Below, one piece after another: positions 16,393-35,626 of a stretch of 38,771 bases of DNA; position 1 is the first letter of the stretch; every line of letters starts with the position of its first letter. Position numbers and translations under genes: made by a program. The notes under the pieces are model-generated. The model worked only from the letters and a program-made list of their open reading frames with translations, was not told where the DNA came from and did not search any database. Source of the DNA: a virus; IMG/VR virus record IMGVR_UViG_3300030107_004270, positions 67,202 to 105,972 of that record, one strand, 5' to 3'.

Positions 16393-16595
16393 ATCCAGAA
16401 GATATAGAACTACGTAGTACATCTCAACAGTTTGAGTATGAGAAGATGTCAAGAGACATTGATAAATGTGATGATGTTGAAGTTCTCAGAGAAATGTGTA
16501 AGTTTCTAGTTAAACTAGAGATGAAAACGAGAGAGAACTATAGTATAATACTACAGGACACCTTACCAGACATATCTAAAAATGGAATTAACTGA
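16389..16595 (+). CDS. Hypothetical helical protein (68 aa)
   Basis: ATG overlaps the previous stop; its 3-prime end overlaps the Nfu gene by 14 bases. Predominantly charged and helical (YEKMSRDIDKCDDVEVLREM near 17-36, then KFLVKLEMKTRENYSIIL). No membrane segment or motif. Translationally coupled in the operon; function unknown. Confidence 0.7.
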   Translation: MNPEDIELRSTSQQFEYEKMSRDIDKCDDVEVLREMCKFLVKLEMKTRENYSIILQDTLPDISKNGIN

Positions 16596-16818
16596 AGAAA
16601 ACGTGATGAAGGTTCTCGAAGACCTTATACCTTACATCGAGGCAGATGGTGGGTGGTTAGAGTTTGTAGAGATAGAAGAAGAAACAAATATAGTTAAAGT
16701 AAGATTGGGTGGTGCATGTTCTACATGTGCTATGAGTGCTATGACATTGAAGCAAGGTATAGAATCTAAGTTATGCCATGAGATTCCAGATTGTTATGGA
16801 GTGATTCAAGTATTATGA
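16582..16818 (+). CDS. NifU C-terminal (Nfu-type) Fe-S scaffold domain protein (78 aa)
   Basis: A stand-alone Nfu domain of about the expected 70-80 residues. Visible hallmarks are the N-terminal helix (ENVMKVLEDLIPYIEADGG, 7-24), a beta hairpin (VKVRLGGACSTCAMS), the CxxC pair C46/C49 that binds the bridging cluster in the family, and the following helix TLKQGIESKL. Family members assemble or carry [4Fe-4S] clusters to apo-enzymes, here presumably in host cytoplasm. Encoded just upstream of PurN in one operon. It could support host photosynthetic or nucleotide enzymes during infection, which is inference. Confidence 0.9.
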   Translation: MELTEENVMKVLEDLIPYIEADGGWLEFVEIEEETNIVKVRLGGACSTCAMSAMTLKQGIESKLCHEIPDCYGVIQVL

Positions 16819-17045
16819 AATGGATAAAAGGTTATGAGGATACAAATTCAAATCCTGTATATAAACATTGCTATGATCCTGACAAGTGGGAAGTAAAATC
16901 TAATAGGTTAATTATGACATGCTATGGGGATGGTGGTGCAATAGATATTAGACTTATGGATACTGATAAGGATTTACAACATCAAATAAACATCACTGTT
17001 AGTGATGGTAAACTCAAAGCAATCGTATCGGAGCAAACTAAATGA
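16815..17045 (+). CDS. Hypothetical protein between Nfu and PurN (76 aa)
   Basis: Start chosen at 16815, where ATG overlaps the Nfu stop; an upstream in-frame ATG would sit inside that gene. A beta-rich soluble protein (KWEVKSNRLIMTCYGDGGAI near 26-45; INITVSDGKLKAIVSEQ near 58-74). It ends with a four-base overlap with purN. No catalytic motif recognised. Confidence 0.7.
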   Translation: MKWIKGYEDTNSNPVYKHCYDPDKWEVKSNRLIMTCYGDGGAIDIRLMDTDKDLQHQINITVSDGKLKAIVSEQTK

Positions 17046-17584
17046 GACTAGGTGTTATGTGTTCTGGCAACGGAACCAACTTCGAGAACATAATCACAAA
17101 TCCTATTTGTAACAAGCATGAAGTTGTATTGATGATACACAACACTAAACATTGTGGTGCTGTTAAACGAGCAGCAAAATGGGGTATTCCTCATGTGAGA
17201 ATACCTCATAAAGATGAAGAGAGAATGATAGAAATGTTTAAGGTATGGAGAGTGGATCTTATCGTTCTTGCAGGATATATGAGGGTAATTAAGAATCCAG
17301 ACGCATTTCCTTGTCCTATAATTAATGTTCATCCATCGTTACTTCCAAAGTATAAAGGATTGAATGTAGTTGAAAGGGCAATGGAAGCAGGTGAAGAGGT
17401 AACTGGATGCACTGTTCATTATGTAAATGAGGAATTGGATGGTGGAGAGATAATACTTCAGGGTGAGGTTCCGATACTACCAAGTGATAATATAGAGTCA
17501 TTAACAAAAGCAATTCAGAGAATGGAATATGGGATATTACCAGCAGCAATAGAACAAGTCAAAGAATTATTGGGACAAGACTAG
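17042..17584 (+). CDS. purN: Phosphoribosylglycinamide formyltransferase (GAR transformylase, 180 aa)
   Basis: Transfers a formyl group from 10-formyl-THF to glycinamide ribonucleotide, the third step of de novo purine synthesis. The N-terminal phosphate-binding motif CSGNGTNFENI (7-17) corresponds to the GSGSGSNL-type loop. The catalytic set is present: N95 and H97 in INVHPSLLPKYKG and D133 in ELDGGEII. A length of 180 is slightly short compared with about 200-212 in bacteria; the C-terminal helix is trimmed but the core is complete. Start overlaps the preceding stop (ATGA). purN is a known auxiliary metabolic gene of cyanomyoviruses and presumably boosts dNTP supply. Identification is firm. 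Confidence 0.95.
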   Translation: MRLGVMCSGNGTNFENIITNPICNKHEVVLMIHNTKHCGAVKRAAKWGIPHVRIPHKDEERMIEMFKVWRVDLIVLAGYMRVIKNPDAFPCPIINVHPSLLPKYKGLNVVERAMEAGEEVTGCTVHYVNEELDGGEIILQGEVPILPSDNIESLTKAIQRMEYGILPAAIEQVKELLGQD

Positions 17585-20091: not shown

Positions 20092-21315
20092 ATGTTTGAG
20101 TTACGTCCACATCAACAGGATACCCTAAATGCTATGCGTGAGTGTAGAAAGGGTCAGGTCATTGTACCTACTGGTGGTGGTAAGACACTCTGCATGATTA
20201 ATGATGCACTACTTGAGTTGGAGTCTGGTACTAAAACAATCGTAGTTGTTTGTCCAAGACTATTACTTGCAAATCAGTTATGCTCAGATTTTACTGAACA
20301 TAAACCTGAAGCATGTATATTACATGTTCATAGTGGAGATGCTGGTAACTATCACTCTACTACAAAACCTGATATAATTTCTAAGTTTTGTTATTACTTT
20401 AGAAATCAGAATAAGTTAATCTTTACAACTTATCATTCTTTACATAGAATTAAAGAAGCAGGTATAAAAGTAGATACCATATACTTTGATGAAGCACACA
20501 ACAGTGTTCAAAAGAATTTCTTTCGTGCTACTGAGTATTATGCAAAATTAAATAATGTTCGTTGTTATTTCTTTACTGCTACTCCTAAACACAGTGCTGT
20601 TGATTGGAAAGCAGGTATGAATGATGAAGAAGTATATGGTGATATAATATGTCAAGTACCTGCACCTGAGTTGGTTGAGAATGGATACATACTTCCTCCT
20701 AAAGTTGTTGTTAAACAATTACCAAGAGGAGGTGATCCAGCAGAACGTGACCATAAGCATCTTTATAGAACTATTCTTGAAGAGGCAACTAATAAGGTTC
20801 TCGTATGTGCATCCTCAACTAAACAAATTGTTCGTCTTGTAAATGGTAGTCCCTTCGTCCATCAGATGAAGAAGTTGGATTACTCTGTGATGTATATTAC
20901 ATCCAAGACAGGTGCATACGTTGACGGAAAGAAGGTTGATAGAGATTCGTTCTTCAAGACCTTATCGGAATGGGGTAAGGATGATGACAAAAAGTTCGTG
21001 GTCATCCATCACTCTATTCTTTCTGAAGGGATCAATGTTTCTGGTTTAGAATCAGTGGTCTTTATGAGAAACATGGACTACATCACCTTTAGTCAAACTA
21101 TTGGTAGAGTCGTTCGTATGAATAAAAAAGATACGGACGATATTCGTGCTGGTAGAATAACCGCAGGTGATGTTCGTTCTTATCAAAAACCATTCGGTTT
21201 GCTCGTTGTCCCTGTGTATTCCAACGTAGGTATTACAACAGCAAGAAACTTACAAGATGTCGTGGACACAGTATTCCACGAAGGTGAACCTGCAATTTCG
21301 GTAATCAAAAGATGA
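20092..21315 (+). CDS. Superfamily 2 DEAH-box helicase (407 aa)
   Basis: An ATP-dependent nucleic-acid helicase/translocase. Motifs in order: Q-like LRPHQQDTLNAM (4-15), Walker A PTGGGKT (26-32), Ia VVVCPRLLLANQL, motif II DEAH (133-136), motif III TATP (162-165), motif V SEGINV (311-316), and motif VI QTIGRVVR (335-342) with arginine finger candidates. All core motifs are intact, so it is probably active. The family includes phage UvsW (about 500 aa, recombination/branch migration) and restriction-type helicases. T4 UvsW has DECH rather than DEAH and is longer, so I do not assign uvsW. Likely role is recombination-dependent replication or repair. Confidence 0.9.
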   Translation: MFELRPHQQDTLNAMRECRKGQVIVPTGGGKTLCMINDALLELESGTKTIVVVCPRLLLANQLCSDFTEHKPEACILHVHSGDAGNYHSTTKPDIISKFCYYFRNQNKLIFTTYHSLHRIKEAGIKVDTIYFDEAHNSVQKNFFRATEYYAKLNNVRCYFFTATPKHSAVDWKAGMNDEEVYGDIICQVPAPELVENGYILPPKVVVKQLPRGGDPAERDHKHLYRTILEEATNKVLVCASSTKQIVRLVNGSPFVHQMKKLDYSVMYITSKTGAYVDGKKVDRDSFFKTLSEWGKDDDKKFVVIHHSILSEGINVSGLESVVFMRNMDYITFSQTIGRVVRMNKKDTDDIRAGRITAGDVRSYQKPFGLLVVPVYSNVGITTARNLQDVVDTVFHEGEPAISVIKR

Positions 21316-27988: not shown

Positions 27989-28117
27989 ATGTCTGTATTA
28001 CATCACGAAGAAATCCTCTTAAGTATTTTCGAGGAGGTCAAGGAAGAATTTCCTTACATGGATGAGGAAAAGCAAATTGAAATCACAAATGAAAGATTTG
28101 CAGAGAGGTGTCAATGA
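27989..28117 (+). CDS. Small acidic protein (42 aa)
   Basis: ATG at 27989 lies behind GTAGGAGGG, a very strong ribosome site; an ATG at 27984 in another frame gives only 12 residues. SVLHHEEILLSIFEEVKEEF then PYMDEEKQIEITNERFAERC. ATGA overlap with the next gene. Function unknown. Confidence 0.6.
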   Translation: MSVLHHEEILLSIFEEVKEEFPYMDEEKQIEITNERFAERCQ

Positions 28118-28692
28118 AAAACATCTCTGAACAGATCGAGAAGATCTATGCTGATAAAGCAGGTAAGACAACCACTTCTCGTAAGTGTATTGCAGACTAC
28201 TGGGAAGATACTAATCAGTATGATGGTAAGGTTGCTGTCAATGTTAAATCAAATGATATTAACAAGCAAAACTTTCTACCTCGCTTAGTATCTTGTAGAC
28301 CTGCATACGATTTCTTATTGGATCAAAGAAATGAGTTAAAATTCATTTTTGTAGACTATCAGAATGTAAATGGTAATCTAACCATTGTAGATGATAGCAA
28401 TCCAATTAGCATTGAGGAGATTGATTGGAAGTATATGTCAATACAATGTCAAGGAGATGGATTTCTTGCATTGAATACAAAAACTTTGAATCAGGGTGCA
28501 AATATGAATCGGTGGCAGATCTTAAGAGATAAGAAACCAAGTCGAGATGAATGGTTAGAAGAGTTTAGAGAGCATTATATTAATTACATTCGTAAAGAAA
28601 ATCTAAAGTTACAAAGAAATCTACAGTATTTTAGTGTAGGATGTCAACAGTTAGATAAGGCAAAAGAAATCATGGAGGAATTGGTAGCATGA
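28114..28692 (+). CDS. Hypothetical protein, possibly nuclease-like (192 aa)
   Basis: The longest gene in the small-gene cluster. A mixed alpha/beta core: RLVSCRPAYDFLLDQRNELK near 57-76, FIFVDYQNVNGNLTIVDD near 77-94, then EEIDWKYMSIQCQGDGFLAL. The order of a D-containing strand, hairpin and W-K-Y strand recalls some restriction-endonuclease-like folds, but I cannot point to a certain PD-(D/E)xK triad. The C-terminal third is helical and basic. ATGA overlaps at both ends. Treat the fold idea as weak. Confidence 0.7.
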   Translation: MKNISEQIEKIYADKAGKTTTSRKCIADYWEDTNQYDGKVAVNVKSNDINKQNFLPRLVSCRPAYDFLLDQRNELKFIFVDYQNVNGNLTIVDDSNPISIEEIDWKYMSIQCQGDGFLALNTKTLNQGANMNRWQILRDKKPSRDEWLEEFREHYINYIRKENLKLQRNLQYFSVGCQQLDKAKEIMEELVA

Positions 28693-28850
28693 TAACCCGA
28701 AAGGATGTTGCCAGTAATCTAATTGACATCATTGCTGATTATCCTGACCAGTTAGTTCCTATTATAGATGAACTAACATACAAACTCAATCAAACTCAAC
28801 TAGAGGAGATTGAAGATCTTATTGTAAATCATTACGGAGAGGAACTTTGA
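28689..28850 (+). CDS. Small helical protein (53 aa)
   Basis: ITRKDVASNLIDIIADYPDQ then LVPIIDELTYKLNQTQLEEI; two or three amphipathic helices, acidic. Its TGA overlaps the TTG start of the next gene. Function unknown. Confidence 0.6.
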   Translation: MITRKDVASNLIDIIADYPDQLVPIIDELTYKLNQTQLEEIEDLIVNHYGEEL

Positions 28851-29236
28851 ACTACTCACAAGACGCAAATCCAAATGCAACTAATTCAGAGTTAGATGCA
28901 AAGGTAGTCATTGACCACAATGATGACTCAAGATTTATTGAAGAAATCTATGAGATTGCATTTGGTGAGGATGCGATTAATCGTGACTTCTCACATGATG
29001 AGGTTATTGAGCAAATCAGAGAATTTTCTGATAATGCACTTGAGTGGGAAGAGTCAGGGTTAAACCTTGACCAACTGCATAATATCTCCGAGGAAATGGA
29101 GAATACTTATAGGCAAGGTTACAGAGATGGGAGAAACTTTAACGCTGATGATGTGGCAAAATGTATTGCTGATAGTAATGGTGGTTATGCTGAGTGTGTG
29201 GATCACATGGTAGATACAATGGAGGGTGGAAAATGA
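28847..29236 (+). CDS. Acidic hypothetical protein, TTG start (129 aa)
   Basis: No in-frame ATG lies near the start, so TTG at 28847, overlapping the previous TGA and preceded by ACGGAGAGG, is taken. Acidic and helical: FIEEIYEIAFGEDAINRDFS and NTYRQGYRDGRNFNADDVAK. ATGA overlap at the end. Function unknown. Confidence 0.65.
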   Translation: MNYSQDANPNATNSELDAKVVIDHNDDSRFIEEIYEIAFGEDAINRDFSHDEVIEQIREFSDNALEWEESGLNLDQLHNISEEMENTYRQGYRDGRNFNADDVAKCIADSNGGYAECVDHMVDTMEGGK

Positions 29237-29535
29237 ATGAATCATTACACACAGTACAGTTGACTCGTAGAGAGTTAGGACTGATACATCACATGACTCG
29301 TATTTTATATGCTCAGATTGATGATGATGTGGAATTTGGTGGAACAAGTAATAATCAAGTATATAATGATTTTTATGGTAAGGATGCAATCTCTGGTGTC
29401 TACCTAAAGACACGAGATGAAATAAATCAGCATTATGATGATTGGTATAAAGATTTACAACGAAAAGATCCTTACATAAGACCTTTCTGCTATGTTAAAG
29501 GACATGAGAACCATTATTCCAATCATGGAGGTTAA
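29233..29535 (+). CDS. Hypothetical protein (100 aa)
   Basis: Start at 29233 in ATGA overlap. N-terminal LHTVQLTRRELGLIHHMTRI resembles the local set of T-R-x-E-L/Y starts. The remainder is Tyr/Asp-rich and basic at the end (YKDLQRKDPYIRPFCYVKGH). Function unknown. Confidence 0.65.
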   Translation: MNESLHTVQLTRRELGLIHHMTRILYAQIDDDVEFGGTSNNQVYNDFYGKDAISGVYLKTRDEINQHYDDWYKDLQRKDPYIRPFCYVKGHENHYSNHGG

Positions 29536-29539
29536 TTAA

Positions 29540-29773
29540 ATGCACTATCTTGTCATTGGTCATTGTGAGTTTAAGGAACCTGATTACATATTCTATCAGG
29601 GAAATTATACTGCAAAAGAAATTGAAAAAATGGCAACAAAGGATTTAACTGAACAATATGTTACAGTATATGATGATGGTAAAGAAGAATACCAAGAAGT
29701 GCCTATAATTTACATAGATCACATTTTTGAATCTGAATCTGACATTCATTTTACCAAAGGATTTTTCCAATGA
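29540..29773 (+). CDS. Hypothetical protein (77 aa)
   Basis: HYLVIGHCEFKEPDYIFYQG then NYTAKEIEKMATKDLTEQYV. A beta-alpha-beta arrangement with mixed charge. Preceded by ATGGAGG and overlapping the next gene by ATGA. Function unknown. Confidence 0.65.
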   Translation: MHYLVIGHCEFKEPDYIFYQGNYTAKEIEKMATKDLTEQYVTVYDDGKEEYQEVPIIYIDHIFESESDIHFTKGFFQ

Positions 29774-29925
29774 ACAAAACTCAAGTCTTAATGACTGAAG
29801 AACAATGGAGGACTGTTATTGATGCAGTCAATGATAAGTATCCTGATAGTGATTGTCTGGATATTCTTATTAACTCTGTTCATCATTTTCCTTCTTTTTT
29901 ATTTGGAGGACAAATAAATGACTAA
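29770..29925 (+). CDS. Small hypothetical protein (51 aa)
   Basis: NKTQVLMTEEQWRTVIDAVN then DKYPDSDCLDILINSVHHFP. ATGA overlap with the previous gene, eight-base overlap with the next. The start style again matches the local set. Function unknown. Confidence 0.6.
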   Translation: MNKTQVLMTEEQWRTVIDAVNDKYPDSDCLDILINSVHHFPSFLFGGQIND

Positions 29926-30076
29926 AATAACTGTTGACCAATACCTAGAATTGCAAGAGTCATTTACATTTAATGATTTGCAATTTGGTTCTGTTAATTG
30001 TTATTTTAATCCAATTTATTATAACAATCCAATGTACTTTAGTCCTTTAACTTATGAGGTAATTGACAATGATTAA
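29918..30076 (+). CDS. Small Tyr/Asn-rich protein (52 aa)
   Basis: TKITVDQYLELQESFTFNDL then QFGSVNCYFNPIYYNNPMYF. A good ribosome site (GGAGGA) lies 8 bases before the ATG, inside the preceding gene. The end overlaps the next gene by eight bases. Function unknown. Confidence 0.6.
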   Translation: MTKITVDQYLELQESFTFNDLQFGSVNCYFNPIYYNNPMYFSPLTYEVIDND

Positions 30077-30284
30077 CTCTGAATGGTTAGGTATGTCCTT
30101 TTGGTTGGACGAGGAGAAAGAGTTTTGCTATTGTCCTACATTTAAGGATAATACACCAGATAAGAAGAATTGGGGATATGTTGTAGATTGGGATGATTTT
30201 GATTGTTACATTAATGAATTGTTTCACATTCATAAGAAACTCATAACTGCGGATGTAGAAAAGTATTATGGAGTAGCACAATGA
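30069..30284 (+). CDS. Aromatic-rich hypothetical protein (71 aa)
   Basis: Start at ATG 30069. INSEWLGMSFWLDEEKEFCY then WGYVVDWDDFDCYINELFHI; many Trp, Phe and Asp. Soluble by charge. ATGA overlap with the next gene. Function unknown. Confidence 0.65.
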   Translation: MINSEWLGMSFWLDEEKEFCYCPTFKDNTPDKKNWGYVVDWDDFDCYINELFHIHKKLITADVEKYYGVAQ

Positions 30285-30475
30285 ATAGACCATTAAGAAT
30301 CACAGGAGAGATAATGGATTGTCTAACATCTGACTATCCTATCTTAAAACGAGAAAATCTACTAAATGAGATTTTATGGGATTATTTTGCTCTAATTGAT
30401 GATGATAGACTATCAGAATTAGAGGACATCATTGTAAACCAAAATTGTATCATCTTTGAGGAGTTAAACCAATGA
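30281..30475 (+). CDS. Acidic helical protein (64 aa)
   Basis: NRPLRITGEIMDCLTSDYPI then LNEILWDYFALIDDDRLSEL. ATGA overlaps at both ends. Function unknown. Confidence 0.65.
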   Translation: MNRPLRITGEIMDCLTSDYPILKRENLLNEILWDYFALIDDDRLSELEDIIVNQNCIIFEELNQ

Positions 30476-30723
30476 ATGATTATCCTACAAGACAAGAAGC
30501 AGAAAAGGAATGGGGTATGCCTTATGGGGTACTTGAACAGTTAGAGTATATGGTATCACGCATAGAGAATGAGTTACCAGAAGAAGAGAAAAAAGAATGG
30601 ATATTAAATCCACATGATAAGGATTGGGATTGGTTGGTGTCTTATGTTGATGAACTTCGTGCTAATACTGGTGTAAACTGTGATGATTATTCGTTCACTT
30701 GGTATCCTAGCAGTTCGTCATAG
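30472..30723 (+). CDS. Acidic hypothetical protein, last of the cluster (83 aa)
   Basis: NDYPTRQEAEKEWGMPYGVL then EEKKEWILNPHDKDWDWLVS. Trp-rich, acidic. Its last 12 codons already contain two TTCGT motifs of the adjacent repeat field. It ends the ATGA-coupled chain. Function unknown. Confidence 0.65.
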   Translation: MNDYPTRQEAEKEWGMPYGVLEQLEYMVSRIENELPEEEKKEWILNPHDKDWDWLVSYVDELRANTGVNCDDYSFTWYPSSSS

Positions 30724-30820
30724 ACTTATAACCAATAAGACGTTCATAAGAAAAAAGATGTTCGTCTTCATTGGTAACTCATGGTAGTATTCGTCCTTAG
30801 TTGCTTCGTACATTCGTGAC

Positions 30821-30980
30821 TGTTGATAAACCTGTGGAAAACTCGTGTTTCTGTGGAAAACTCTGTGTTTTTATGTATATTCGTGCTTAATTCGTCTTTA
30901 AAATGGTCAAATAAATAGGAGTTCGTTTTCTACAAGGATGTGGAAAACCTTCGTCTTTATGTGTAAAAACATGTGGAAAT
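30821..30980 (-). other. DnaA-box cluster, candidate replication origin
   Basis: Read on the minus strand, TTTTCCACA occurs at 30833-30841, 30852-30860 and 30939-30947, with one-mismatch forms at 30960-30968 and 30972-30980. A TTATCAACA form lies at 30821-30829. TTTTCCACA is the DnaA-box consensus reported for cyanobacteria. All boxes face the same way, around an AT-rich stretch at 30861-30920 that could melt. Origin function is inferred. Confidence 0.5.
30910..30917 (+). promoter_or_regulatory. Late-promoter-like box (AATAAATA) within the origin-like block
   Basis: AATAAATA followed by GGAG but by no good ORF. It may prime transcription through the block, as T4 origins use transcripts, or be chance. 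Confidence 0.35.
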
Positions 30981-31082
30981 GTTCGTCCGTGTCGTGGTCT
31001 TGCCCTGCGTTCTACCATAAGACCGCAAAAAAGTCAAGGAGGTTCGTTGTAAATCTTCAAAATGTCTTCGTCCTCACACAAC

Positions 31083-31111
31083 TTGTCACACGGGACACTT
31101 CGTGGTATAAT
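31083..31111 (+). promoter_or_regulatory. Sigma70 promoter (TTGTCA-17-TATAAT)
   Basis: TTGTCA at 31083-31088 and TATAAT at 31106-31111 with an exact 17-base spacer. A transcript would begin near 31118, which makes the ATG at 31146 the natural start of the next gene. Confidence 0.7.
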
Positions 31112-31145
31112 AGAGTATAAGAACACAAAGAAACTCTATGGTCTT

Positions 31146-31322
31146 ATGCCATTTACCAAGAAATTCCCCAATGCGGGAGAGACAGTCCACATAAGAGTGC
31201 CAAAATGTTACAAAGATTCTATAATAGATCTTTGTATAGCATTAGACAGCAAATTTCAACAAGATGTAACAAAGGGTAACACTACCATACGCAAAATTAT
31301 ACAGAACTCCCTTTCACATTAA
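31146..31322 (+). CDS. Small basic protein (58 aa)
   Basis: An upstream in-frame ATG at 31062 is rejected because the strong promoter at 31083-31111 lies between. PFTKKFPNAGETVHIRVPKC then YKDSIIDLCIALDSKFQQDV. The beta strand followed by two helices (VHIRVPKCYKDSIIDLCIAL) is compatible with a ribbon-helix-helix DNA-binding protein, so it could act on the adjacent repeats. Weak assignment. Confidence 0.6.
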   Translation: MPFTKKFPNAGETVHIRVPKCYKDSIIDLCIALDSKFQQDVTKGNTTIRKIIQNSLSH

Positions 31323-31423
31323 CATAAAATCCTCATAGTCTGGGAGATTGTCACAATTCTTATGATAATTTTTGTTACAGTCGCAATTCTTAATATTTCA
31401 ATGTGTTACTAAAAATAATTCAT

Positions 31424-31468
31424 GGCAGGGTCGGTGTCGAATATTTGATCTAGCAGATACATCCCTGC
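31424..31468 (+). ncRNA. Structured element copy A (candidate leader RNA)
   Basis: 45 bases aligning without gaps to 31995-32039 at 32 of 45 positions. Hairpin 1 is GGCA/TGTC with loop GGGTCGG; hairpin 2 is GCAG/CTGC with loop ATACATCC. Loop GGGT could kiss ATCC. An alternative fold pairs GCAGGG (31425-31430) with CCCTGC (31463-31468). It lies about 140 bases before the wHTH-like gene. Confidence 0.4.
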
Positions 31469-31540
31469 TCCCTTCCTCTTTAATTACTCTTATTCTAGTC
31501 CCTAACAAGCATAAATCTACCGACCTTGTGCCACTTTATT

Positions 31541-31550
31541 AACTGGCACA
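31541..31550 (+). repeat. AACTGGCACA motif, copy c
   Basis: With upstream TGTGCCA (31527-31533) it forms a hairpin. It stands 60 bases before the 88-aa gene and next to the inverted repeat at 31552. Confidence 0.55.
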
Positions 31551-31551
31551 T

Positions 31552-31571
31552 TAAGTGGTTTACAAGTCGAT
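31552..31571 (+). repeat. Inverted repeat, left copy (20 bases)
   Basis: TAAGTGGTTTACAAGTCGAT; its reverse complement recurs at 32075-32094 with 19 of 20 matches. The two copies bracket the 88-aa gene, the 28-T run and structured element B. Confidence 0.7.
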
Positions 31572-31610
31572 TAATATCGCTTATTGTGTGTTCAGTTACA
31601 TCAATCAATT

Positions 31611-31877
31611 ATGAACGTCACTCAAAAGCAATGCCTAAGAACACTTAGAAAGCATCCTAACGGTTTAGGAGTCTCTACACTTGCTAAGAAAGCAAACCTA
31701 GTAAAATCTGAGGATGATAATACATCATTCATTAAAGATCAGTTAATGCCATTAGAAAGGTCAGGTAGACTGACTAGAACAACTACTAAGCAAGGTAGGA
31801 CTATTAAATGGTACACTACTAAGCATTTTGAGAATAATAAAAGACGTAATAGAATATTTCAATTAAATCTATTCTAA
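31611..31877 (+). CDS. Small winged-helix-like DNA-binding protein (88 aa)
   Basis: Start at ATG 31611; an upstream in-frame start has no ribosome site. Helix NVTQKQCLRTLRKHP (2-16), helix VSTLAKKANLV (22-32), helix FIKDQLMPLERSGRL (40-54), then a basic beta wing with TRTTTKQGRTIKWYTT and a basic tail. This order is that of a winged helix-turn-helix. Likely a DNA-binding regulator. Enclosed by a 20-base inverted repeat and flanked by AACTGGCACA hairpins, it may bind them (inference). Confidence 0.65.
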   Translation: MNVTQKQCLRTLRKHPNGLGVSTLAKKANLVKSEDDNTSFIKDQLMPLERSGRLTRTTTKQGRTIKWYTTKHFENNKRRNRIFQLNLF

Positions 31878-31889
31878 GATTTTATGAGG

Positions 31890-31913
31890 TGTGCCAGTTA
31901 AGAAACTGGCACA
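31890..31913 (+). terminator. Perfect 10-bp hairpin after the wHTH-like gene (motif copy d)
   Basis: TGTGCCAGTT (31890-31899) pairs perfectly with AACTGGCACA (31904-31913), four-base loop. TTGTTTTTTG follows from 31921, seven bases after the stem, so a terminator is likely, though the T-tract is slightly displaced. As a dyad it could also be a protein-binding site. Confidence 0.6.
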
Positions 31914-31963
31914 TTCTCTATTGTTTTTTGTGTTCTTATGATCTAGAATGAAGATAGAATCTA

Positions 31964-31991
31964 TTTTTTTTTTTTTTTTTTTTTTTTTTTT
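31964..31991 (+). repeat. 28-base T homopolymer
   Basis: An uninterrupted run of 28 T, far longer than any other here. It lies directly before structured element B. It may be real or an assembly/sequencing effect. Confidence 0.85.
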
Positions 31992-31994
31992 ATT

Positions 31995-32047
31995 GACAGG
32001 GTGAGTGTCGATGAATTGATCAGGCAGTTACCCTACTGCCGTTTTTT
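31995..32047 (+). ncRNA. Structured element copy B with terminator-like hairpin
   Basis: Hairpin 1 is GACA/TGTC (31995-32009), loop GGGTGAG. Hairpin 2 is GGCAGT/ACTGCC (32023-32040), loop TACCCT, followed by GTTTTTTC, which fits a rho-independent terminator. Loop GGGT can pair with ACCC of the second loop. Arm changes relative to copy A keep pairing. It may act as a leader/attenuator or a terminator for the 88-aa gene. Confidence 0.5.
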
Positions 32048-32074
32048 CTTGTTATTCTTATTATAAGCGATCAG

Positions 32075-32094
32075 ATCCACTTGTAAACCACTTA
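32075..32094 (+). repeat. Inverted repeat, right copy (20 bases)
   Basis: ATCCACTTGTAAACCACTTA, reverse complement of 31552-31571 with one mismatch. Confidence 0.7.
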
Positions 32095-32108
32095 GTAGAC
32101 ACTTTATA

Positions 32109-32118
32109 AACTGGCACA
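32109..32118 (+). repeat. AACTGGCACA motif, copy e
   Basis: Preceded by ACTTTATA as in copy c (ACTTTATT). It lies 60 bases before the ATG at 32178, the same distance as copy c from the wHTH-like gene. Confidence 0.55.
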
Positions 32119-32177
32119 CTCTATATGGAATAGGCATAAAAAATAGATTACAATTAGATTAATCGAACATTAATCAC

Positions 32178-32825
32178 ATGCCTACTCTAACAATCGCTAA
32201 GAATGACTATAAGGTCACTAAAGGCAATATTCACAACATCTATAAGCAAGCGACAGTAGATGAAATAAATGCTGGTTTAGTATGGTATAAGTTAGCAAAA
32301 GATTTTACCATGCTATTAGAATCTACATTAGATTTTGAAATATCTTATAAAAAGATAGCAGGAGTAGTAGCAGCATTATCAGTTCAGAATCAATGGAATA
32401 CTAATAAAAAGGATGCTTTAAATGTTTGTATGGCATATTTTGAAAATAATAACCTAGATGATGTATTAGTTTCAACTTATCCTATATGTAAAGATAAAGC
32501 AATTAAAATCTTACAGAGTGATGGCAGTAACGATTCTATAGAGACTATTTTAGGCGTTAATGCTAGGAAGACAAAAAACTTTTATTGGAATATTATAGGC
32601 GATGATAGAGCGATTACAGTAGATGGTCACGCCTTTAATATTGCATCTAATAGAGTATCATCTTTAAAGGAAGTACCTCCGATAAGTAAAAAGAATTATA
32701 AGATCTTACAGACTGAATATAAATTAGCAACATCATTTATTAATAAAAAGTATAACTTATCTTTAAAAGTTTCAGATGTTCAGGCAATAACTTGGGTAAC
32801 ATATAAGAGAATAAATGACAAATAG
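32178..32825 (+). CDS. HhH-glycosylase-like conserved phage protein (215 aa)
   Basis: Helical protein with ISYKKIAGVVAALSVQNQWN at about 55-74, then KKDALNVCMAYFENN and a C-terminal core NARKTKNFYWNIIGDDRAIT (128-147) followed by VDGHAFNIAS (148-157). The order 'K-x-x-N-F-x-x-x-I-x-GD-x-x-x-T-V-D-x-H-A' resembles the helix-hairpin-helix and following Asp region of HhH-GPD DNA glycosylases and of a phage family of unknown role. D149 would be the candidate catalytic Asp. Likely DNA binding; enzyme activity is unproven. Separate transcription unit bordered by repeats. Confidence 0.7.
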   Translation: MPTLTIAKNDYKVTKGNIHNIYKQATVDEINAGLVWYKLAKDFTMLLESTLDFEISYKKIAGVVAALSVQNQWNTNKKDALNVCMAYFENNNLDDVLVSTYPICKDKAIKILQSDGSNDSIETILGVNARKTKNFYWNIIGDDRAITVDGHAFNIASNRVSSLKEVPPISKKNYKILQTEYKLATSFINKKYNLSLKVSDVQAITWVTYKRINDK

Positions 32826-32834
32826 TGATACAAC

Positions 32835-33393
32835 TTCGTACCTATCGTTGTTAGATAGTACCCCTATCTAACTTCGTTATCTATTAATTAACCTTACAAT
32901 CCTTCGTTATTATGTACACTAACTATTCACGATTAACCTCTAATACCTTATGTAAGGGTAAGAATTGCGATGATATGTATAAAGAATTGCTGATATATTA
33001 TGAGACTAATGATAACTTAAGCGATGATATTATCGACCTTAAGTATAAGATACTAAAGAATATTGCATGTACTAAATGTTATTAACTTCGTAGTATTCGT
33101 GCATTAAATGTTACCTACCTCGCTTCGTGTAGGCACTTCGTTATTACTTAGTGACCTTATGTTCGTTTATTATTTGTTATTTTATAATTTAATATTTGTA
33201 AAATGTTAATTAAATTAGTGTTAATTAGTGAGACTCACTCGTCTAAAAGTGAGAAATTAACCCCTATATTTCAGTATAGCAAATATATCTGACTCGTCAA
33301 GTAAAGTTCGTTATCGCAGTCATACCAATGGATTTGGGTTGTAATATTTATATATAGTGCCTCGCTATTTAACATTTAGTGATTTGACTTCGT
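32835..33393 (+). repeat. TTCGT motif field 2
   Basis: TTCGT starts at 32835, 32873, 32903, 33087, 33096, 33124, 33137, 33162, 33307 and 33389. All are on the plus strand and all lie outside the 57-aa gene at 32912-33085. Five extend to TTCGTTAT. A TTATCAACA DnaA-like box follows at 33393-33401. Confidence 0.7.
32912..33085 (+). CDS. Small Cys/Tyr-containing protein (57 aa)
   Basis: YTNYSRLTSNTLCKGKNCDD then MYKELLIYYETNDNLSDDII and KYKILKNIACTKCY. Cys at 14, 19, 53 and 56 (C..4..C and CTKC) could bind zinc. It is not coupled to neighbours and has no clear ribosome site, but amino-acid use is orderly and it is free of the surrounding TTCGT motif. Moderately supported. Confidence 0.5.
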   Translation: MYTNYSRLTSNTLCKGKNCDDMYKELLIYYETNDNLSDDIIDLKYKILKNIACTKCY

Positions 33394-33705
33394 TATCAAC
33401 AATCGAGAAGTCAGTCAGGGACAGTGTTTTGGGCGTTTTTTGTTTATACCGTTGCCGCCCTTGCGTTTTAAAAAAACGAAAGTCCCTAACCTACAACGAA
33501 CCCAGAAAGCGAGAGTGATAAAAAATTCGGAAAAAAAAATTTTACCCCAAATACCCCAGGCATAAGACCCCAGTGAAAATTCGGAATTTCATACATACTC
33601 TGTATGGGTTTATCGGAAGCCTTATAGAAAATTTTAAAGGGATAAAAACCGCCCCTCTAAGAATCGTAGGAAATATATAATGTGACGGGTTATAATAAAG
33701 AAGTT
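33086..33705 (+). other. 620-base gene-free stretch
   Basis: No credible ORF on either strand. It holds part of TTCGT field 2, a GACTTC/GAAGTC hairpin near 33385-33413, the three-stem element at 33417-33487, three ACCCCA repeats (33544, 33553, 33567), two AAAATTCGG copies and a TATAAT at 33691-33696 before the 49-aa gene. Confidence 0.6.
33417..33487 (+). ncRNA. Possible three-way-junction RNA
   Basis: An outer stem AGGGAC (33417-33422)/GTCCCT (33482-33487) encloses a GGGCG (33431-33435)/CGCCC (33456-33460) hairpin and a CGTTTT/AAAACG hairpin near 33463-33478. Nested complementarity in a gene-free stretch suggests a folded RNA. Not conserved-tested. Confidence 0.35.
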
Positions 33706-33855
33706 ATGAGATTAGAACTTGACGAATACGAAAAGGATACTCTGATGGAGACTATTCAGTACAGAATGGATGAAGATACTCACCTCCTTGTTAATGCATC
33801 CTTAAAGTCAGACCTTAAAGATTTACTAGACAGATTTGAAGAAGAAGACTACTGA
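33706..33855 (+). CDS. Small acidic protein (49 aa)
   Basis: RLELDEYEKDTLMETIQYRM then DEDTHLLVNASLKSDLKDLL and an acidic end. Helical. The L-D-E-Y-E-K-D-T-L opening again resembles the set in the small-gene cluster. A TATAAT box at 33691 lies 10 bases before the ATG. Function unknown. Confidence 0.6.
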   Translation: MRLELDEYEKDTLMETIQYRMDEDTHLLVNASLKSDLKDLLDRFEEEDY

Positions 33856-33901
33856 GAACGGGTAAGAACCGTAGTGTACAGTCGATCTAAATAGAGGACC
33901 G

Positions 33902-33930
33902 TTGCAATTATTGACTTGTAGTGGTATAAT
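33902..33930 (+). promoter_or_regulatory. Sigma70-like promoter (TTGCAA-17-TATAAT)
   Basis: TTGCAA at 33902-33907, 17-base spacer, TATAAT at 33925-33930, 24 bases before the glycosyltransferase-like ATG. Same pair as at 15387. A second TATAAT lies at 33936. Confidence 0.6.
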
Positions 33931-33954
33931 AAACATATAATAACATTCGAGGTT

Positions 33955-34713
33955 ATGGCTAAAGGTTTTACAGTAAAGGCAGACGTGCCTAAGAAGAAAG
34001 AATCGCAAGATACTTTTAACATTGATGAAGCCAAAGAAATGATTAAAGGTAAGACAGTGGTATTCTGTCTACCTGGTAGAGGAGTTTCTTACATCTTTTT
34101 AAAGGCATTTGTACAGTTATGTTTTGACTTGGTTCAGAACGGTGCAGCGATTCAGATATCACAAGACTATAGTAGCATGGTAAACTTTGCAAGATGCAAG
34201 TGTTTAGGTGCTAATGTTCTCAGAGGACCTAAACAGGTTCCGTGGGATGGTAAGTTGAAATATGATTATCAGTTATGGATTGATAGTGACATTGTATTTG
34301 ACACTGAGAAGTTCTACCGTCTTGTACATATGGATAAAGAGATTGCAGCAGGTTGGTATTGCACAGAGGATGGAAAGACTACTTCTATTGCACATTGGTT
34401 AGAAGAGGATGATTTCCGTCAGAATGGTGGTGTGATGAATCATGAAACCATAGAAACGATGAGCAAACGTCGCAAACCCTTCACTTGTGACTACACTGGA
34501 TTTGGTTGGTTACTTATAAAGAATGGAGTATTTGAGCATGAGGGTCTCCCTTATCCTTGGTTCGCTCCAAAGATGCAAGTCTTTGAATCTGGTGAGGTTC
34601 AAGATATGTGTGGCGAGGATGTCTCGTTCTGTCTAGACGCTATCGAAGCAGGTTTCGAGATCTGGTGTGACCCTAAGATTCGGGTAGGGCATGAGAAGAC
34701 TAGAGTTATCTAA
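33955..34713 (+). CDS. Glycosyltransferase-like (GT-A fold) protein (252 aa)
   Basis: After a Lys-rich 30-residue leader comes a Rossmann-like strand VVFCLPGRGVSYIFLKAFVQ (35-54), then DYSSMVNFARCKCLGANVLR (71-90). The WIDSDIVF strand holds a DxD motif at 110-112, the metal/nucleotide-sugar site of GT-A enzymes. GFGWLLIKNGVF (182-193) and GEDVSFCLDAIEAGF (220-234) match the acceptor-side elements, with H246 near the end. It is a common late-region neighbour of gp25 in cyanophages, to my recollection. Substrate (virion protein, DNA base or host glycan) cannot be told. Confidence 0.7.
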   Translation: MAKGFTVKADVPKKKESQDTFNIDEAKEMIKGKTVVFCLPGRGVSYIFLKAFVQLCFDLVQNGAAIQISQDYSSMVNFARCKCLGANVLRGPKQVPWDGKLKYDYQLWIDSDIVFDTEKFYRLVHMDKEIAAGWYCTEDGKTTSIAHWLEEDDFRQNGGVMNHETIETMSKRRKPFTCDYTGFGWLLIKNGVFEHEGLPYPWFAPKMQVFESGEVQDMCGEDVSFCLDAIEAGFEIWCDPKIRVGHEKTRVI

Positions 34714-34727
34714 GGTCTTATAGTAAT

Positions 34728-34775
34728 GAGGGGTCTTATGCCCCTCTAAAAAATCGGGCCGTTAAAAATACGGCC
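34728..34775 (+). terminator. Tandem hairpins after the glycosyltransferase-like gene
   Basis: GAGGGG (34728-34733)/CCCCTC (34741-34746), followed by TAAAAAAT, and GGCCGT (34757-34762)/ACGGCC (34770-34775). Neither has a T-tract on the plus strand, so they may be processing or partial termination signals. Confidence 0.4.
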
Positions 34776-34805
34776 GCTAAAGATAAAAAAACGGAGCAAA
34801 ACATT

Positions 34806-34946
34806 ATGGGTATGAGAAGTTTATCTGGAGAAGTTCAGGTAGAAGCAAAACCAAAGAAGACCTATCAGGGTCGAGGAAAGCATACTAAATATGCTGCAAC
34901 TGCCTCTAACAAGGCAAAAAAACGTTATAGAGGACAAGGGAGGTAG
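34806..34946 (+). CDS. Basic small protein (46 aa)
   Basis: MRSLSGEVQVEAKPKKTYQG then RGKHTKYAATASNKAKKRYR and ends GQGR. A very basic, Gly-rich tail of the type GRGKHTK..AT..N.AKKRYRGQGR, which I recall as a recurrent tiny cyanophage protein near gp25. Probably nucleic-acid or protein binding. ATG at 34812 is an alternative start. Confidence 0.65.
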   Translation: MGMRSLSGEVQVEAKPKKTYQGRGKHTKYAATASNKAKKRYRGQGR

Positions 34947-34948
34947 CA

Positions 34949-35104
34949 ATGGACGAACAACGTTACAACGTAGAACAGTTCTTTACACAAGGTTGGGACA
35001 TAGTTGGTGCTAATATGACTAAAGAGGAGGCCACAAAGCGTTTAGACGCTCTACAGGCAGAAGGTTTCGTTCCTTCAGACCTAAGAGTCAGGAAAGTAGT
35101 TTAA
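34949..35104 (+). CDS. Small hypothetical protein (51 aa)
   Basis: DEQRYNVEQFFTQGWDIVGA then NMTKEEATKRLDALQAEGFV and PSDLRVRKVV. It starts two bases after the previous stop behind GGGAGG. The helical T-K-E-E-A-x-x-x-L-D-x-L-x-A-E-G motif looks like a small conserved domain. It ends just before a strong terminator. Function unknown. Confidence 0.65.
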   Translation: MDEQRYNVEQFFTQGWDIVGANMTKEEATKRLDALQAEGFVPSDLRVRKVV

Positions 35105-35224: not shown

Positions 35225-35626
35225 ATGGCAGTTAAGATTTCCAGAGCATTTAAGGACATTAGTTTGTCTTTTAGTAAGCATCCAGTTACAAATGACGTAA
35301 CTGTGCTTAAGAATGAGGACGCAATCAAAAAATCTGTCATTAATTTGACCAGAACTCGTTTTAATGAGAGATATTTTAACGAATTAATAGGTACTTCCAT
35401 AGACAATTCCCTTTTTGAGTTAATGGATAGTGGTATAGGGGATGTTATGGAGACGGAAATAACAACCTTATTAAATAATTTTGAACCAAGGATCAATTTA
35501 ACCTCTGTTACAGTTGAACCTGAACCTGATATGAACTATTTGGGTGTTAAAGTTGAGTATGAAATAGTAGGATTGCCATTTCCACAACAAAACATAGAAT
35601 TTTTACTACAACCGACCAGGGTATAA
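35225..35626 (+). CDS. 25: Baseplate wedge protein gp25 (133 aa)
   Basis: gpW/gp25-like baseplate protein, nearly the same length as T4 gp25 (132). Recognisable features are the N-terminal ISRAFKDISLSFSKHPVTND, the conserved NLTRTRFNERYFNELIGTSI stretch (about 39-58, family pattern ...L.T..GER...P..G) and the C-terminal beta strand LGVKVEYEIVGLP. In T4, gp25 joins gp6 and gp53 in the inner wedge and contacts the sheath. The last base of its stop codon is the first base of gp6. A canonical late box is not visible upstream. Confidence 0.92.
   Translation: MAVKISRAFKDISLSFSKHPVTNDVTVLKNEDAIKKSVINLTRTRFNERYFNELIGTSIDNSLFELMDSGIGDVMETEITTLLNNFEPRINLTSVTVEPEPDMNYLGVKVEYEIVGLPFPQQNIEFLLQPTRV

Follow-up and report, generated by a model that had tools for sequence, protein, structure and literature searches.

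A recurrent array of host-type DnaA boxes beside an early-type promoter in T4-like cyanophages: a candidate origin of replication

Might a T4-like phage of cyanobacteria start its replication with the initiator of its host? To our knowledge, host initiator use is not known for T4-type phages. The question is raised by a cluster of DnaA boxes in a T4-like cyanophage-type virus, within a stretch of 38,771 nucleotides (the window) that represents bases 67202-105972 of a 106,732-base (106.7-kb) IMG/VR virus record. Searches of the open-access full-text literature turned up no description of DnaA boxes for cyanophages or for T4-like origins, and the word 'DnaA' is absent from a review of T4 initiation (PMC3016281). 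A single theta origin predicted for Syn9 is the only cyanophage origin mentioned in a further review (PMC2984593).

The array is placed between an ORF ending at 30723 and a promoter near 31083. The window also carries the phrog_1574 gene at 33955 and, at 35225 and 35626, respectively, the T4-like tail genes gp25 and gp6. The presence of the array is confirmed, and it comprises the following elements:

30821-30829, - strand, divergent DnaA box by sequence, TTATCAACA, 12 bp to the next box
30833-30841, - strand, exact DnaA box TTTTCCACA
30852-30860, - strand, exact DnaA box TTTTCCACA
30862-30920, no strand, mildly AT-rich tract separating the two box groups, a weak candidate unwinding element
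30926-30934, + strand, one-mismatch box TTTTCTACA, facing the next box at a distance of 13 bp, a recurrent convergent geometry
30939-30947, - strand, exact DnaA box TTTTCCACA
30960-30968, - strand, one-mismatch box TTTTACACA, in register at 21 bp from its predecessor
30972-30980, - strand, one-mismatch box ATTTCCACA, in register at 12 bp from its predecessor

These 160 bp thus hold three exact and three one-mismatch copies of TTTTCCACA, which is the published cyanobacterial DnaA-box consensus (PMC4674748), as an earlier note on this sequence had recognised, together with one TTATCAACA, a sequence reported among the boxes at the origin of the linear Cyanothece chromosome (PMC4674748). The earlier count of three exact boxes, two one-mismatch boxes and one TTATCAACA was correct for the boxes it included and missed the third one-mismatch box at 30926. 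Since this TTTTCTACA box lies on the + strand, 13 bp from the box at 30939, the view that all boxes share one orientation has to be abandoned. With 22 one-mismatch boxes versus 17.6 expected, the window has no unusual number of them; what stands out is their clustering. Three of the four exact TTTTCCACA copies in the whole 106.7-kb record fall within the array, and its cluster score is 9, the highest score of any other cluster in the record being 2. The 'AT-rich core' noted earlier corresponds to a mild and rather weak enrichment, with a maximum of 72% A+T per 60 bp versus a window mean of 65% (approximately the 90th percentile). The region can be accepted as gene-free, the sole listed ORF of at least 60 aa over the array (30938-31120) being without support. 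As expected of a DnaA-dependent origin of the oriC type, at least three consensus DnaA boxes are therefore clustered in noncoding DNA. No Rfam match was obtained across window positions 28000-35000, and direct DNA similarity to phage records was confined to flanking parts, with none at the array itself.

Within the two groups, successive boxes of the window are spaced by 12, 19, 13, 21 and 12 bp. Across 41 distinct arrays, the great majority of same-strand neighbours are 11-12 or 20-22 bp apart, convergent pairs are separated by 13 bp and also by 23-24, 56 and 78-79 bp, and divergent pairs by 13 or 19 bp. Cyanobacterial chromosomal arrays likewise display the 11/21-bp spacing, as judged with search patterns that allowed a wide range of gaps. 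The imperfect boxes of the window match this register (a convergent 13 bp, then 21 and 12 bp) and are therefore independently supported as sites; the first two exact boxes, with their 19-bp gap, fall outside it. With the exception of this gap, the spacing is helically phased and host-like, as in an oriC-type origin, and the array is also a cluster of evenly spaced iterons, as in an origin of the T4 oriE type.

Conservation was assessed in isolates and in metagenomic contigs, where counts across related phages are not independent. Among 17 complete or near-complete cyanomyoviruses, pairs of exact boxes less than 100 bp apart are present in seven (Syn9, S-PM2, S-SM1, S-SM2, S-ShM2, S-SSM5 and P-SSM7); the array is located near 52.57 kb in Syn9, 48.85 kb in S-SM1 and 52.82 kb in S-ShM2. 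Every such pair falls between the gene for a ~410-aa helicase and gp25, an interval that makes up ~8% of the DNA across the 14 genomes in which both genes could be located. In S-SKS1, a TTTTCCACA/TTATCCACA array phased at 21 bp likewise lies within this interval. We detected no array of exact boxes in P-SSM2, P-SSM4, P-HM1, P-RSM4, S-RSM4, S-SSM7, S-CRM01, S-CAM9, Sf-FS3 or T4; mismatch boxes were scanned in the other isolates, S-CRM01, S-CAM9 and Sf-FS3 being judged by the exact-box list. Arrays were borne by 7 of 12 Synechococcus versus 1 of 5 Prochlorococcus phages, numbers that are too small for a claim on host range. Because tiny annotated ORFs overlap boxes in several isolates, as do annotated tRNA genes in S-PM2, the 'intergenic' status of the boxes rests on doubtful annotations in some isolates.

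For the metagenomic contigs, 80 relatives were picked via the phrog_1574 gene at 33955, regardless of boxes. In an unbiased 9-mer survey of these relatives, TGTGGAAAA/CTGTGGAAA belonged to the words that most often recur in clusters, with only the TCTCGACGA/CTCGTCGAG family ranking above them. Among the loci with at least 2.5 kb upstream of phrog_1574, 4 of 42 carry a strong array there, and the identical test downstream of this gene yielded a strong array in 0 of 36 loci. The DUF7178 gene, when used as an anchor, gave a single relative, whose contig ends before the array. Lastly, when 2.9 million viral contigs were scanned blind for three tandem TGTGGAAAA, the result was at least 119 loci, a lower bound that is not a representative prevalence. 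Homologues of window genes, nearly all of them gp25, gp6 or phrog_1574, are present in at least 53 of these loci, while 66 of the listed 119 carry no window genes. Among the listed matches with such homologues, the array is mostly upstream of them, in general 0.7-4 kb and at most ~9 kb upstream of phrog_1574. The reversed control pattern occurred at 25 loci in total, none of which has gp25/gp6/phrog_1574-type neighbours.

The conservation in relatives to which the earlier note had tied its proposal was thus observed in a minority of relatives, though a substantial one, namely 8 of 17 isolates, ~10% of the gene-anchored sample and at least 53 blind-scan loci. Since many relatives are without it, the array is recurrent, not universal. 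This patchiness, and the hypervariability of the region, would suit the view that the boxes are captured fragments of a host oriC or functionless random noise. We regard this view as highly improbable, as the reversed control pattern is rare and never found at the genomic place of the array, and as arrays persist over many genera with their spacing kept while the surrounding sequence diverges.

The sequence that follows the array in the window is characterised by three further elements:

30996-31038, + strand, conserved motif of the array-promoter interval (CTACCATAAGACCGCA...GTCAAG), near-identical in S-SKS1
31083-31111, + strand, near-consensus sigma-70 promoter TTGTCA-17-TATAAT
31146-31322, + strand, small ORF of 58 aa served by the promoter at 31083-31111

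When promoters with at most 2 mismatches were sought on the gene strand up to 350 bp downstream of the array, a sigma-70 promoter was present for 40 of 50 arrays versus 13.5% of random positions. An early (host sigma-70) promoter therefore stands alongside the repeats, as at origins of the T4 oriE type. In the closest relative (L163), the 58-aa ORF is conserved to 75% over 59 aa; the figures are 50% in L183 and L201 and 41% in L145. An 86-aa ORF listed from 31062 gave no match in a tblastn search of the phage collection, and more plausibly starts at 31146, past the promoter. The window and S-SKS1 have a common variant motif, CTACCA.AAGAC.GCA...GTCAAG, and other isolates have a related CTTAGCACG...GTCAA motif instead. 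Across 8 isolates, a composite unit can be aligned, which includes a CTTAGC motif and has the order box(es), AT tract (AAATAAATCTA), GTGTGTTTTAT, CTTAGCACG motif, GTCAA and TTGACA-17/18-TATAAT. P-RSM4 and P-SSM4 have kept the composite promoter unit, and the boxes are absent from them. A structured hairpin downstream of the array is not well supported, the folding energies being weak and inconsistent.

The main rival to an origin is promoter regulation. Host DnaA would then be a transcription regulator, and the boxes an upstream control site for repression or activation of the strong early promoter, which would couple early expression to the cell cycle or replication state of the host. Indeed, the promoter coupling is very strong, DnaA is known to control transcription outside oriC (PMC7198777), and the matching place in P-SSM2 has a matching promoter, in and around which another repeat (ATCTCGACTAGAT) occurs, as would be the case if operators were exchangeable. 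However, most phages have no overlap between boxes and promoter, the distance between them varies from 3 to 306 bp, and up to 8 boxes with oriC-like phasing exceed the needs of a simple operator. Regulation appears unlikely to us.

Several other repeats accompany these promoters. The window contains one such group around the array:

30656-31103, all on the + strand, 15 noncoding TTCGT pentamers interleaved with the array, a candidate second operator motif

One of these copies lies inside the spacer of the early promoter, and a further noncoding cluster of 10 copies, all on the + strand, is located at 32835-33393. TTCGT is also enriched around the arrays of about a dozen relatives (e.g. L109, L092, L074 and L123), and the clusters are possibly the site of a second regulator. 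The ATCTCGACTAGAT-type repeats of P-SSM2 surround a perfect sigma-70 promoter at 66.0-66.2 kb (L008, 7548-7720). In S-SKS1 (L351), CTCGACGAG/ACGAGATA repeats surround the promoter beside the DnaA boxes, and in 6 of 80 relatives the 9-mer with the strongest clustering comes from the ATCTCGACTAGAT/CTCGACGAG/ACGAGATA word family. In S-PM2, AAATCTCA/AGATTTAAG repeats with inverted arms are densely packed immediately downstream of the boxes, at 19.45-19.62 kb (L345, 1450-1620). Elsewhere in the window, a conserved noncoding segment at 31404-31550 is 78% identical to P-SSM2 66468-66614 and has no annotated gene or Rfam match; it apparently has a second copy at ~31996-32120, has GCAGGG...CCCTGC inverted-repeat ends, and is a candidate noncoding RNA or regulatory element. 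A long uninterrupted T run occupies noncoding positions 31962-31990 between two small genes. Positions 16582-17584 encode a NifU-like domain protein (Pfam match) close to a PurN-like protein (identified by eye), both probable auxiliary metabolic genes. The superfamily-2 helicase of ~410 aa at 20092-21315 is conserved among cyanomyoviruses, whose UvsW-like gene is a different one.

What would bind the boxes? A DnaA_C domain, the DNA-binding C-terminal part of DnaA, was absent from G000 (a fragment) and 9 phages in a search that detected its positive controls, including S. elongatus, and cyanomyoviruses carry the T4 replisome (PMC2984593). Host DnaA is therefore the likely ligand. One use of such binding would be a decoy: the array would titrate host DnaA in the manner of datA and block host re-initiation as phage copies accumulate. 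High-affinity consensus boxes of host-type sequence and the lack of a phage DnaA would be in keeping with this. However, each genome has a single small array, often of 2-5 boxes, and titration requires neither a fixed position nor conserved phasing nor a promoter. We rank titration third, as a rather improbable explanation.

As T4 oriE unites iterons with an early promoter, an oriE-like origin with host DnaA as the iteron binder is favoured. We believe, with modest confidence, that the array provides the DnaA-binding portion of a T4 oriE-type phage origin made up of phased repeats and an early-type sigma-70 promoter, and the findings suggest that many T4-like cyanobacterial viruses borrow the replication initiator of their hosts. 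We infer DnaA binding, opening, priming and initiation at the array. Host DnaA would bind the phased boxes and thereby distort or open the adjacent DNA, the transcript of the promoter 100-150 bp downstream would form an R-loop and prime the leading strand, and replication would then pass to the T4-type helicase, primase and polymerase of the phage. The earlier proposal of a phage origin that uses host DnaA is partly supported: it gains from the conservation, the oriC-type geometry and the lack of a detectable phage DnaA, and loses from the many relatives without an array.

Two further observations bear on such an origin. The GC skew of 8 isolates, which is dominated by coding-strand bias, has no clear switch at the array, its detrended maximum being several kb away, and it speaks neither for nor against an origin. 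The position of the array relative to phrog_1574 drifts by 0.7-9 kb, which speaks against an origin. Moreover, the boxes are not essential for T4-like replication, because P-RSM4 and P-SSM4 have lost them and because about half of the isolates and most gene-anchored contigs are without an array. Also against such an origin, dnaA has been reported to be dispensable in some cyanobacteria (PMC7198777). A tentative and broader proposal, which may well prove wrong, is that a large part of the T4-like cyanophages has a hybrid origin, where a T4-type replisome starts on DNA that has been opened by host DnaA assembled on boxes that mimic oriC, and that phages of weakly DnaA-dependent hosts, such as some Prochlorococcus phages, keep the promoter unit and lose or swap the boxes.

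The array provides a precise and conserved origin candidate in the named isolates Syn9, S-PM2, S-SM1, S-SM2, S-ShM2, S-SSM5, P-SSM7 and S-SKS1. It would link the host initiator to a phage that has a full replisome of its own, and could serve as a genomic marker of host DnaA dependence.

Phage and plasmid origins that use host DnaA, such as P1 oriR, are part of temperate or plasmid-like replicons that have a Rep of their own. The present array resembles them in having host DnaA boxes in a putative viral origin, and differs in belonging to a T4-like phage family with a complete replisome of its own. The DnaA titration locus datA also has boxes outside oriC, whereas the phage array is promoter-coupled and phased and has few boxes. 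T4 oriF (ori uvsY) adjoins the baseplate gene 25, just as the array is upstream of gp25; oriF has no repeats and a middle promoter. True synteny with oriF through UvsW was rejected, as the window helicase is of a different ~410-aa family, gene orientation differs, and the true UvsW-like genes of cyanomyoviruses sit elsewhere. With the chromosomal oriC of cyanobacteria, the array shares TTTTCCACA boxes (PMC4674748) and the 11-12 and 20-22 bp spacing; unlike oriC, it has no dnaA/dnaN neighbour, is coupled to a sigma-70 promoter and usually has fewer boxes. The nearest functional parallel is T4 oriE, where 12-nt iterons are found with an early promoter and occur in syntenic regions of close relatives (PMC3016281). 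The phage arrays are likewise at a syntenic place in relatives, with a drifting position and about half of the isolates lacking them. Both loci combine a cluster of evenly spaced short direct repeats with an early-mode promoter, but the oriE iterons are 12 nt long, whereas the repeats here are 9-nt host DnaA boxes on both strands. The array also suggests a role for the phased repeats at T4 oriE.
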